In this document: piece after piece, positions 44,565 to 50,028 of the stretch | Numbering within the stretch: position 1 is the stretch's first letter | Layout: each line of letters opens with the position of its first letter | Program-made: the position numbers and the translations under genes | The notes under the pieces: model-generated | What the model saw: only the letters and a program-made list of their open reading frames with translations | Database searches by the model: none | What the model was told of the DNA's origin: nothing | Assembly (NCBI GenBank): GCA_003569705.1 | Contig: BGOU01000002.1 | Location: 186,001 to 250,000 of the forward strand | Direction: 5' to 3' | DNA from: Nitrosarchaeum sp. | Lineage (GTDB): Archaea; Thermoproteota; Nitrososphaeria; Nitrososphaerales; Nitrosopumilaceae | DNA length: 64,000 nucleotides

Positions 44565-44831
44565 ATGTTACCTGACAGATGCTCCATTATGGAAAAGGGA
44601 AAACAGTGTGTCAATCCTCCAGAATTTGTAGTATCAGTTGTGGTGGAAAAAGATGAATACATGGTTGGAGTTACATGCAATAAACATAAACAAATAGTCT
44701 CAGGAAAAATTCAATCTCTTCAGAATGAAGATAAACTCCCTCATGGAAAAATCAGTTTTTCACCATTAAAAGCAGTTGGAACTGATTGTATACATGGTGA
44801 TCCTGATGATTTTGTCCATTTAGACACATAA
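44565..44831 (+). CDS. Unknown Cys/His-containing small protein (88 aa)
   Basis: Not recognised. Cysteines at about positions 6, 15 and 53 and a C-terminal CIHGDPDDF segment with extra His (CNKHKQ) suggest a metal site. No signal peptide or membrane helix. ATG at 44565, divergent from lhgO; the unknown gene at 44874 follows by 42 bp on the same strand, possibly one transcript. Confidence 0.6.
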   Translation: MLPDRCSIMEKGKQCVNPPEFVVSVVVEKDEYMVGVTCNKHKQIVSGKIQSLQNEDKLPHGKISFSPLKAVGTDCIHGDPDDFVHLDT

Positions 44832-45458: not shown

Positions 45459-46430
45459 CTAATACCCGACAGAGTAAATGGGCGATTTCCCATTCATTCC
45501 TAGATTTAAATTCTCTATGGTGATTTCTGCCATCTTTACTCTTGTCTCTTTGGTTGAACTTCCTATATGTGGTGCTAAAACAATATTTTGTATCTTTGTA
45601 AATGGGTGTTTTTTACTAATGGGTTCTAATTCATATACGTCAAGTGCAGCACCTGCGATAATTTTTTTATTTAGTGCTGTTATGAGATCGTTTTCATTAA
45701 CAATTTTGCCTCGTGCAGTATTGATTAAAAATGCAGATTTTTTCATTTTTTTAAAAATTTTCATATTAAATAACTGATTGGTTTCTTTTGTATGGGGAAC
45801 ATGGATTGAAATTACATCACTCTGAGTTATCAGTTTGTCTAACGTGACATATTTTACTCCTAATAATTTCTCTTTATTTTTAGCGACAGGTTCTCTATTG
45901 TGATATATTATTTTCATATCAAATGATTTAGCTCTCTTTGCAAGAGTACTGCCAATTCTTCCTAACCCAAAAATTCCTAACGTCTTACCTTGAAGATCAA
46001 CTCCTACATAATCATATGCTCCGTAAATTTGTCTCCATTTTCCATTTCTGATTATTCTGTCTCCTTCGGAAACTCTACGTAACACATCCAGCATCAAAGA
46101 AAATGCCAAATCTGCTGTCGCATCTGTGAGAACTTCTGGGGTATATCCAACACGAATTTTCTTTTTCTTTGCATATTGTGTATCTATATGATCAAAACCA
46201 ACACTATAGGTACTGATAACTTTGAGATTTTTTGCAATATCTATCAAATCACTATCAATTTTATCATATGGAAAACAAATCAATCCTTCCACATTTTCAA
46301 TTTTTGATCGTAATCTTGTTTTTGAAATTGGAATTTTACCTGAATGGATTTCAATCTGATATCTTTTTTTTAATTCTTTTAATGCAAAATCATGAAGTGT
46401 TCTAGTGAGAAAAACTCGCTTTTTTTCCAT
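45459..46430 (-). CDS. D-isomer 2-hydroxyacid dehydrogenase (glyoxylate/hydroxypyruvate reductase type)
   Basis: The 323-residue product has the NAD-binding motif GIFGLGRIGSTLAKRA (about 150-165) and the catalytic triad of the family: Arg in NTARGKIVNE (about 238-247), Glu in the DVYELEP region (about 263-269), and His in APHIGSST (about 285-292). Closest by pattern to archaeal glyoxylate reductases; phosphoglycerate dehydrogenase is less likely because the C-terminal ACT part is absent. Direction and substrate are inferred. Monocistronic. Confidence 0.82.
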   Translation of the reverse strand: MEKKRVFLTRTLHDFALKELKKRYQIEIHSGKIPISKTRLRSKIENVEGLICFPYDKIDSDLIDIAKNLKVISTYSVGFDHIDTQYAKKKKIRVGYTPEVLTDATADLAFSLMLDVLRRVSEGDRIIRNGKWRQIYGAYDYVGVDLQGKTLGIFGLGRIGSTLAKRAKSFDMKIIYHNREPVAKNKEKLLGVKYVTLDKLITQSDVISIHVPHTKETNQLFNMKIFKKMKKSAFLINTARGKIVNENDLITALNKKIIAGAALDVYELEPISKKHPFTKIQNIVLAPHIGSSTKETRVKMAEITIENLNLGMNGKSPIYSVGY

Positions 46431-46484
46431 TATCCCTGAGATTCATCTCAAACCATTTATACGATTTCTTTCTAGATAATCAAG

Positions 46485-46625
46485 ATGTCAAAGACAGAAG
46501 AAGAGGAATTTGCAATTTGTATCGACTGTGGAAATTCTATTGAAAAATGTGCTTGTGTCTGTCCTTATTGCGGTGAACGAGATAAATGTGAATGTGCATT
46601 ATTTGATTCAGCTACTGGTGGTTAG
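46485..46625 (+). CDS. Small cysteine-rich protein (46 aa), probable zinc ribbon
   Basis: This frame encodes MSKTEEEEFAICIDCGNS, then IEKCACVCPYCGERDKCECA and ends ATGG. It has eight cysteines in four pairs (CIDC, CAC, CPYC, CEC), typical of a zinc ribbon or small Fe-S protein, with an acidic start. ATG start preceded by atcaag; 46 bp before the 2-oxoacid oxidoreductase gene, same strand. It could be a protein-interaction or redox partner, but no evidence fixes that. Too regular to be chance. Confidence 0.75.
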   Translation: MSKTEEEEFAICIDCGNSIEKCACVCPYCGERDKCECALFDSATGG

Positions 46626-46676
46626 CTCAATTTATGCATCATATTATTAATATACAAAAAAATGAGATGATTGTAT

Positions 46677-48587
46677 ATGGGTTCTATTGATTTTACTTGG
46701 TTAATTGGAGGTCCGCAAGGAAGTGGAGTAGATTCTGGTGCTAATGTTTTTTCTAAAGTTTGTGCGGAGATGGGGTATGGGGTTTTTGGTAAGAGGGAAT
46801 TTCATTCTAACATTAAGGGAGATCATAGTTATTTTACAGTTAGAGTTTCTGATGAAGAGATTCATTCAAATGTAAATGATGTTACTTTAATGGCTTCTTT
46901 TGATGCTGAAACAATTTTCAGACATTTTGATGAAGTTCCTACAGGTGGTGGAATAATATATGATTCTGATTTAGATAAAATAACCATTGATGAAGTACAC
47001 ACTCTTGATAATTATTTCAAAGAAAGATTACATAAAGAATTAGAATCTAAAAGCAAACCTTTTACCATTACAGGTGCTCTTGAGATTGCCAAAGAGAAAG
47101 GTGTTAATCTTTATCCCGTGTCTTTTCGGGAAATATTGTCAAATCTTGCTGAAAAGACAGAAAATCCAAAACTAAAGGGATTAGTTAGGTTGTTCAATGT
47201 ACTTGCGGTTTCTTTATCGTTAGGGTTAGTTAAAATGCCACTTGATCCTTTACTTCAATCCATTGATTCTATATTTTCAAAAAAACCTCAGATAGCAGAA
47301 ATTAATAAACAAGCAGCAAATTTTGCATATGATTACGCTAAATCAAAATTTAATAATTTTTCATATGCTTTAACTGGTACTACTAAACAACCTGATACAA
47401 TTCTTGTTCAGGGTCATTTTGGAACTTCGATAGGAAAAATGGTCAGTGGTTGTAGATTTCAGTCATACTATCCTATTACTCCTGCTTCTGATGAAAGCGT
47501 CTATCTGGAATCCAATGAACTTTTAGAAATTCAAAATGATAGACCTGGTTCAACCATTGTGATTCAAACTGAAGATGAAATATCTGCAATGGGTATGATG
47601 ATTGGCGCTGCATTAACTGGTACGCGTTCTTCCACATCTACTTCTGGACCTGGATTTGCATTAATGACTGAAGCACTTGGTTGGGCTGGAATTAACGAAG
47701 TTCCAATTGTAATTACTTTGTATCAAAGAAGTGGTCCTTCAACAGGTCTTCCTACACGACATGGACAAGATGACTTACTCTTTGCAGTACATGCTGGACA
47801 TGGTGATTTTCCAAAAATTGTTTATGCTTCTGGTGATATTGAAGAAAGTTTCTATGATACTGGAAGATGTTTTAATTATGCAGATGTTTACCAAATTCCT
47901 GTTATCCATATGATGGACAAATTTCTTTCAAGTTCTGTTGTTACATGTAAAAAATTTGATCCTCAAAAGATTTCTATTGATAGAGGTCTATTGTTAGATA
48001 AAGTAGATGGGGAATACAAGCGGTTTGCTTTTACTGATGATGGAATTTCCCCCCGTTCTAGATTAGGATTGGATAATGGTGTTTTTTGGAATACTGGTGA
48101 TGAATCCGATGAATTTGGTCATATTACAGAAGATCCTCAGATTCGCATCAAAATGATGGATAAAAGAATGTCTCGACTAGACTTGGTGATAAAAAGAATT
48201 CCTGATGATGAACAGGTTGTTTCATTTGGTGTCTATGATTACACTATAATTTCTTGGGGTTCTACTAAGGGTCCAATTTTGGATGCTATTTCAATGCTTA
48301 AAAAAGAGGGAATTAATGTTGGATTTATTCAAATTAAATTAATTCATCCTTTCCCATCTGATTATGTCAAGTCTCTTCTAAAAGATACAAAAACCATCAT
48401 TGACATTGAGGCAAATCATTCAGGACAATTAGGCAAAATCTTCAAGCAAAACATATCTCGGGAAATCGATTATTTTATACTAAAATATACTGGAAGAGGA
48501 ATGACTAGCACTGAAATTTATGATTCACTAAAAAAGATAGTTGAAAATAAGGCAAATAAAAGAGAGGTTCTAAGTCATGGCTCTTAA
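46677..48587 (+). CDS. 2-oxoacid:ferredoxin oxidoreductase, fused gamma-alpha subunit
   Basis: The 636-residue product joins a gamma domain ([20 protein letters not shown], residues 7-26) to an alpha domain ([18 protein letters not shown] and [18 protein letters not shown] in the middle). It works with the beta subunit encoded just downstream to make acyl-CoA, CO2 and reduced ferredoxin from pyruvate or 2-oxoglutarate. Which 2-oxoacid is used cannot be read from the sequence alone. A TTG two codons upstream (46671) is another possible start. The next gene overlaps its end by 11 bp. Confidence 0.9.
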
Positions 48588-49539
48588 ATTAGCTGATTAC
48601 AAAACTGAAGTACATAATGATTGGTGTCCTGGTTGTGGGGATTTTGGAATAGTCAATGCATTACAAATGGCGTTAGCAGAAATGGGGATAGAACGTGATA
48701 AAGCAACAATTTTTTCTGGTATTGGTTGTTCTGGAAAGACATCTCATTTTATCAACACATATGGTGTCCATACCTTACATGGAAGAGTTTTGACTTTTGC
48801 CCAAGGTGGAAAACTTGCAAATCCTGAGATGACAGTTATAGCAGTAGGTGGTGATGGTGATGGATTGGGAATAGGGGCTGGTCATTTTGTTGCAGCCGGA
48901 AGACGCAATATTGACATGACTTACATAATATTTGATAACGGAGTGTATGGTCTGACTAAAGGACAAGCTTCACCAACCTTAAGACTCGGAGAGAAAACAA
49001 AATCCCTTCCTTCTCCAAACACAAACTATAACGTAAATCCTATTGGATTGGCAGTTGTCAGTGGTTTTACATTTGTAGCCCGTGGTTATTCTTATGATGT
49101 TAGACATTTGAAAGATCTGATAATCAAAGCTGTTCGTCACAAAGGTCTTTCCTTCCTTGATGTGTTACAACCATGTCCAACTTACAATGATATCAATACA
49201 CGAGATTGGTATGCTGGAGTTGATTTAGCGCAAGAATCTATGGATAGACACTCTAGAATCTATAAACTTGAAGATACAAATTTTGACCCTATGGTACATT
49301 ATGACGATGAGACAGAAGTTAATGAAAAACTATCTCAGGCCTTGATTAAATCTCTGGAATGGGGAAATAAAATCCCGACAGGTGTATTTTATCAAAACGA
49401 AATAATTTCTCAATATTCGACCAGACTAACTGATAAAATTCCAAATTATCTTGAAAACCCTCCTGCAAAACAAAGGATTTCAGAAAATGGATCGCCAACT
49501 ACAGATGTTTCAGAAATACTTGATTCTCTTAGAGTTTAG
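48577..49539 (+). CDS. 2-oxoacid:ferredoxin oxidoreductase, beta subunit
   Basis: The 320-residue product binds thiamine diphosphate: [18 protein letters not shown] at residues 17-34 and [15 protein letters not shown] (about 89-103), followed by [16 protein letters not shown]. The two Cys near the start and one in the C-terminal half (QPCPTYND) ligate an Fe-S cluster. Its ATG lies inside the alpha gene, so the two are translated together. Alpha lacks a delta-type ferredoxin domain here, as in two-subunit archaeal OFORs. Confidence 0.92.
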
Positions 49540-49587: not shown

Positions 49588-50028
49588 TTGCTGTTGAACA
49601 TAAACGAGGCAAATAAAATATTTAGAAAATCTATTATCAAAGGTTTCTTTGAGCCCCAACTTGTTAATCTTGATTTTAAAAAATCGGGAGTAAAACATCC
49701 TTCTATAACCGACGATGGCTTGATGCAATCTGATTTACTCCATGTGTTTTTTGATGTAGATACTGGTTCTGATTATCCAGACGGGGACGAATGGTTTATT
49801 GTTGAACTACTTTTCCCACATGATATTAAACTTCCAGACACTTTGAAAGGAACTGATTATTTTACAACTATTTCAGTTGAGAATGGAAAAACATTTTGGC
49901 ATCATCGTGAACTAATACGTTACAAATATGGTAAATCAAAGAAACTCGACGATGCATTGGAATTTTTAGAATCAAAATACAAAGAACTACATGGTTTACT
50001 TGAACCCCTTCAAAAAGATCTCAAGTAA
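49588..50028 (+). CDS. Unknown protein (146 aa)
   Basis: Not recognised. TTG start. The product is acidic and soluble, mixed alpha/beta (HVFFDVDTGSDYPDGDEWFI, VELLFPHDIKLPD) with a C-terminal helix (DDALEFLESKYKELHGLLEP). Its last 8 bp overlap the end of the convergent unknown gene. Follows the oxidoreductase by 48 bp. Confidence 0.6.
   Translation: MLLNINEANKIFRKSIIKGFFEPQLVNLDFKKSGVKHPSITDDGLMQSDLLHVFFDVDTGSDYPDGDEWFIVELLFPHDIKLPDTLKGTDYFTTISVENGKTFWHHRELIRYKYGKSKKLDDALEFLESKYKELHGLLEPLQKDLK

Follow-up and report, generated by a model that had tools for sequence, protein, structure and literature searches.

We found that a small cysteine-rich gene (mini-gene) in the window, the whole stretch of 64,000 nucleotides that was analyzed, is a lineage-specific, nonobligatory partner of the two-subunit 2-oxoacid:ferredoxin oxidoreductase (OFOR) encoded just downstream. 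We tentatively favor the reading that its product (mini-protein) is an OFOR-dedicated metal-binding adaptor that inserts or repairs the one [4Fe-4S] cluster carried by the beta subunit. OFOR is a key CoA-acylating enzyme of 2-oxoacid oxidation in the central carbon metabolism of these archaea, and we know of no work that has established how aerobic ammonia oxidizers install and maintain its oxygen-sensitive cluster. The features of the locus are as follows.

45459..46430, minus strand: D-2-hydroxyacid dehydrogenase-like gene, the divergent neighbor upstream of the mini-gene (family search)
46450..46461, plus strand: archaeal TATA-type promoter element AAACCATTTATA (window sequence; conservation across named loci)
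46485..46625, plus strand: cysteine-rich mini-gene (translated open reading frame, homologue search, alignment, pN/pS)
46677..48587, plus strand: OFOR alpha (NF041170, 902.9 bits, cut-off 800; PF01558, PF01855, PF17147)
48577..49539, plus strand: OFOR beta (NF041171, 444.1 bits, cut-off 423)

The translation of 46485-46625 agrees with the original prediction of a 46-residue protein with four Cys pairs. The mini-protein, MSKTEEEEFAICIDCGNSIEKCACVCPYCGERDKCECALFDSATGG, carries 8 Cys in the pattern CxxCG-x6-CxC-x-CPYCG-x4-CxC, in which the two halves form an internal near-repeat (CxxCG-x6-CxC and CxxCG-x4-CxC), and its C-terminal end is ATGG. We aligned 60 diverse mini-protein sequences (alignment A2, from which L187 was left out, its second Cys being Tyr). 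Seven Cys and one Gly were invariant, and the eighth Cys was nearly so. The terminus was TGG or TGGG in 57 of the 60 rows, and 1 further row was clipped by the coordinates used. Net charge was negative in 57/60 (mean, -4.3), which suits protein binding more than nucleic acid binding. For codon comparisons and the counts over named loci, we used the best 80 of the 269 mini-gene loci confirmed in a named collection. Over a 35-codon core in these 80 loci, mean pN/pS was 0.030/0.528, or 0.057; the mini-gene is under strong purifying selection.

The upstream region is conserved as well. The sequence TTTATA starts 29 nt before the mini-gene ATG in the window. Among upstream regions long enough to test from the best 80 of 269 loci, TTTATA was present in 75 of 79 and the longer element AAACCATTTATA in 69 of 79. 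In 65 of the 69 loci with a measurable distance, the element starts 27 to 29 nt upstream of the first in-frame ATG. As controls, TTTATA occurred in 49 of 1600 random 110-nt windows from the same loci, and TTTATA or AAACCA was found within 60 nt past the mini-gene stop in just 2 loci. This spacing suggests a leaderless transcript that would begin at the mini-gene and probably run into the OFOR genes, with the mini-gene and OFOR cotranscribed. Since 47 of 61 relatives have homologues (protein search, order genomes), pN/pS is 0.057, the Cys are conserved, and TTTATA lies upstream, we concluded that the open reading frame is a real gene and not a chance one.

No Pfam or NCBIfam model covers the mini-protein family (the window protein and 60 members searched). 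Pfam Zn_ribbon_3 touches 15 of the 60 members, with a best E value of 0.00086, and NCBIfam gave just two weak matches. A mini-protein sequence profile searched against the PDB reached a best E value of 0.29. The AlphaFold model is poor (mean pLDDT, 70; pTM, 0.43); we looked for a beta-grasp fold in it and found one short helix and no strand of at least 3 residues. This low-confidence model had no Foldseek match at an E value of ≤0.001 and no VIA-align match at a Z score of ≥2. A study of haloarchaeal CPxCG proteins shows that neither sequence nor AlphaFold tells whether such a protein binds metal (PMC11241148). Our searches of the open literature found no paper describing the mini-gene.

The mini-gene and OFOR alpha lie on the same strand, 51 bp apart if alpha starts at the ATG at 46677 and 45 bp apart if it starts at the in-frame TTG at 46671; a gap of about 50 bp had been predicted. 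In the best 80 of 269 named loci, the mini-gene was directly upstream of alpha on the same strand in 80/80, with gaps of -13 to 56 bp. Among the matches listed from the protein search of the order, alpha adjoined the mini-gene in 30/30 loci, as it did in 10 more genomes, most of them in other families of that order; the mini-gene stood at OFOR in 40/40 orthologue loci examined in the order. In the class sample, 222 of 300 genomes had a mini-protein match, and adjacency was looked at in part of them. In the phylum sample, 99 of 398 genomes had a match, leaving 97 after we dropped G344 and G551, whose matches were weak ones to zinc ribbons in other proteins. OFOR alpha was present in 94 of these 97 genomes versus 229 of 398 overall. 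The set from deeper lineages of the phylum held 32 loci, or 30 without the same two unrelated zinc ribbons (L203 and L204). The mini-gene was directly before alpha in 26 of the 30, and the alpha proteins at the deeper loci were 45 to 50% identical. The 4 exceptions were a second mini-gene copy in one genome (G218) and the copies in three genomes of family f47, which had no OFOR match at threshold and in one of which a Cys was lost. The search for conserved neighbors in relatives, which had been proposed as a check, thus strongly supports the predicted link to two-subunit OFOR, both within the order and in deeper lineages.

The D-2-hydroxyacid dehydrogenase-like gene was divergent in 78 of the best 80 of 269 loci and is a conserved neighbor within the family; it is nonadjacent in deeper lineages. 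In several families (L020, L022, L027, L029, L038-L040, and L057-L062), a conserved 88-residue Cys/His-containing open reading frame (window 44565-44831, plus strand) lies close to the OFOR locus. Several genera of the family, and also L050, share a conserved 146-residue protein encoded after OFOR beta (49588-50028, plus strand); it had no family match above cut-off, the best being DUF2854 (E value, 0.064). One marine viral contig (L243/L244/L246; IMGVR_UViG_3300006308_000188) closes with a 57% identical relative that has its own AAACCATTTATA. Contig L271, which has the same viral gene, departs from that contig just before the promoter element, and the mini-protein motif was found in 0 of the other 150 IMG/VR viral loci, the three matches being one contig. 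The viral copy is therefore likely an assembly chimera, and we set it aside.

Not every OFOR has the mini-gene. Alpha scored over the cut-off in 46 of the 61 order genomes, and by profile search 9 of these 46 lack the mini-gene (G005, G021, G038, G040, G041, G045, G046, G051, and G059). Two are at contig edges, the contig ending about 94 bp before alpha in G005 and about 200 bp before it in G038. In the eight genomes besides G005, the available sequence upstream of alpha, bounded by contig ends at L146 and L148, contained no mini-gene-like open reading frame. Two other genomes (G076 and G081) each have two over-cut-off OFORs, with the mini-gene at just one of the two. In a tree of 70 alpha proteins, all 42 with the mini-gene fell inside one clade of 57, and the 13 Sulfolobus-type and similar alphas, 13/13 of which lack it, stood apart. 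Six gains or losses of the mini-gene are needed on this tree, and a genus with genomes of 0.8 Mb (G021, G177, and G299) is among those that lost it within the clade. The original prediction had named absence from relatives with the same OFOR as evidence against it. Such absence was found in part of them, the 9 of 46 that include the two contig-edge cases, and indicates that OFOR does not strictly need the mini-gene.

A fusion in one lineage points to a function. In family f12, both sampled genomes (G047 and G060) encode a protein of 118 to 120 residues, an in-frame fusion with a NifU domain ahead of the mini-protein motif. The N-terminal part is the NifU domain, which keeps its CxxC and matches PF01106 over the cut-off in both proteins (E values, 6e-7 and 3e-8), and the C-terminal part is the mini-protein. 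Both fusions sit before OFOR. They were the sole NifU matches in the 61 order genomes, while controls were positive in 5 of 14; where NifU exists in the order, therefore, it is fused to the mini-protein and placed before OFOR. Neither the window protein nor its genome gave a NifU match. We also considered NifU acting in trans near OFOR and rejected it, as stand-alone NifU domains of other classes were ordinary and nonadjacent to OFOR (12 stretches).

OFOR beta in the window carries WCPGC, IGC, and QPC cysteines, which we take to be the ligands of a predicted single [4Fe-4S] site. For the two-subunit type, the beta subunit is described as having a single [4Fe-4S] cluster (PMC5020499). Together with the NifU fusion, this suggests that the mini-protein supplies or repairs the cluster and so helps to build or maintain the OFOR iron-sulfur center. 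According to this model, transcription would start from the TATA box before the mini-gene, a promoter supported by conservation, and would run on into alpha and beta. The eight Cys would then provide one or two metal sites of four Cys each, and the folded mini-protein, with its conserved -TGG tail, would dock on OFOR. There it would take up or guide a [4Fe-4S] cluster that a general carrier supplies for beta, as the f12 fusion implies. Because no NifU was found in the window genome, a different partner carrier would be needed there, perhaps SufBC or ApbC/Mrp.

OFOR adjacency, co-occurrence, the NifU fusion, purifying selection, and acidic charge all support the adaptor reading. The original prediction had proposed either an assembly factor or an electron carrier, and the fusion is positive evidence that leans our interpretation to the assembly side. 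Several observations count against it. The fusion occurs in two related genomes only, OFOR lacks the mini-gene in several lineages (the 9 of 46 order genomes and 13/13 of the Sulfolobus type), NifU domains of other classes are not near OFOR, and the poor structure model matched nothing. CPxCG proteins are, as a rule, zinc and not Fe-S binders (PMC11241148). Paralogues of the mini-protein, moreover, lie in regulator-rich islands and not near Fe-S enzymes. A small partner that is outside the family libraries, conserved in several lineages, and NifU-fused in one of them offers a direct handle on how the OFOR cluster is put in and maintained. We suggest adding the mini-gene whenever OFOR of these organisms is expressed.

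It is possible, although we judge it rather unlikely, that the mini-protein is instead a small structural accessory subunit that binds zinc and, in mature OFOR, stabilizes the complex or shields the cluster. The tight gene linkage (gaps mostly 3 to 75 bp, sometimes overlapping), the two CxxCG knuckles, and a near-invariant tail suited to docking would all fit such a subunit. So would an insertion of about 12 to 18 residues after YPITP of alpha, which was found in 0 of 42 alphas with the mini-gene versus 10 of the 15 alphas in their clade that lack it (L147-L152, L234, L235, L239, and L240; often with an ENPQ/ENPH-like core). However, differing pairs on the tree were too scarce for the correlation to reach significance in an independent-pairs test, and we rejected the insertion as a substitute for the mini-protein. 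The 18 alphas with neither feature (13 Sulfolobus type and 5 in the clade) also argue against a simple either-or. A structural subunit leaves the NifU fusion unexplained, and mini-gene presence does not follow the respiratory oxidase. We had considered oxygen protection and rejected it, since the mini-gene does not track haem-copper oxidase (COX1): it is at OFOR in three genomes with no COX1 match (G047, G056, and G060) and is absent from seven with one (G021, G038, G040, G041, G045, G046, and G059). A Pfam search for AMO gave no match in any genome, controls included, and is uninformative on ammonia oxidation.

We also found paralogues of the mini-protein (L032, L034, L036, L037, L048, L054, and G000:C8:29665-29766), often two within 1.5 kb, with the -TGG tail in some and not in others. 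Their neighbors, named from sequence, are single RAM-domain (Lrp/AsnC-like), TFB, roadblock, and USP genes. This company would suit a small zinc finger regulator of the adjacent OFOR genes, like Brz. That small CPxCG protein has its gene immediately upstream of bop, in the same orientation, and is needed for bop mRNA (PMC2253796). We consider such a regulator improbable, because the mini-protein is mostly acidic, the f12 fusion to a NifU carrier domain has no place in a regulator, and a gene that stays with one enzyme across classes more typically encodes a protein partner.

The other half of the original prediction, an electron carrier, fares poorly. We strongly doubt that the mini-protein is such a carrier dedicated to OFOR, or a redox protein like rubredoxin, standing in for the delta domain that is missing. 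The premise is sound, as two-subunit OFORs have no ferredoxin-like delta domain (PMC5020499, PMC2946596), and the mini-protein is acidic like ferredoxins, with 8 Cys that could hold two clusters. Yet the Cys spacing is that of neither ferredoxin nor rubredoxin, and we found neither a CxxCxxCxxxC motif nor a ferredoxin family match (Pfam, NCBIfam). The mini-gene is absent from many two-subunit OFOR lineages, Sulfolobus OFOR works with ordinary ferredoxin (PMC2946596), and the NifU fusion goes unexplained. Finally, we give very little weight to a functional -TGG tail, in which the mini-protein, as a metal-stabilized sulfur carrier or a conjugable tag with an activated C-terminal glycine, would deliver sulfur or mark OFOR during cluster assembly.

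Comparison with known systems places the mini-protein in a familiar class. CPxCG proteins are defined as having fewer than 100 residues and two Cys patterns 7 to 40 residues apart, at least one of them CPxCG-like (PMC2253796). The mini-protein has CIDCG at 12-16 and CPYCG at 26-30 in 46 residues. Of 14 purified haloarchaeal CPxCG proteins, 5 were zinc free (PMC11241148). Like Brz, HVO_2753, and HVO_0758, CPxCG proteins of archaea, it is shorter than 100 residues with two CxxCG-type knuckles, and like Brz, it is encoded directly upstream of the gene it would serve, in the same orientation. Unlike all three, it has two extra CxC pairs and a near-invariant -TGG tail, is fixed to OFOR across classes, and is fused to NifU in one family. 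It resembles the OFOR delta subunit and 2[4Fe-4S] ferredoxins in being small, having eight Cys, and being encoded with OFOR; in contrast to them, it is half the length and has no CxxCxxCxxxC and no Fer4 match. With ubiquitin-like and SAMP-type carriers it shares a C-terminal GG; under the tail reading it would serve a single enzyme, as an analogue of ThiS/SAMP-type carriers without the beta-grasp fold. In G047 and G060, the C-terminal (Nfu-type) Fe-S carrier domain of NifU, PF01106, is joined to the mini-protein motif upstream of OFOR, and only those fused proteins qualify as NifU/Nfu carriers, the window mini-protein having no NifU domain. The broad class of small CPxCG zinc finger proteins is thus already known, and this is a family in it without a library model. 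What sets it apart, as a family outside the libraries searched, is the fixed enzyme partner and the telling fusion to NifU.
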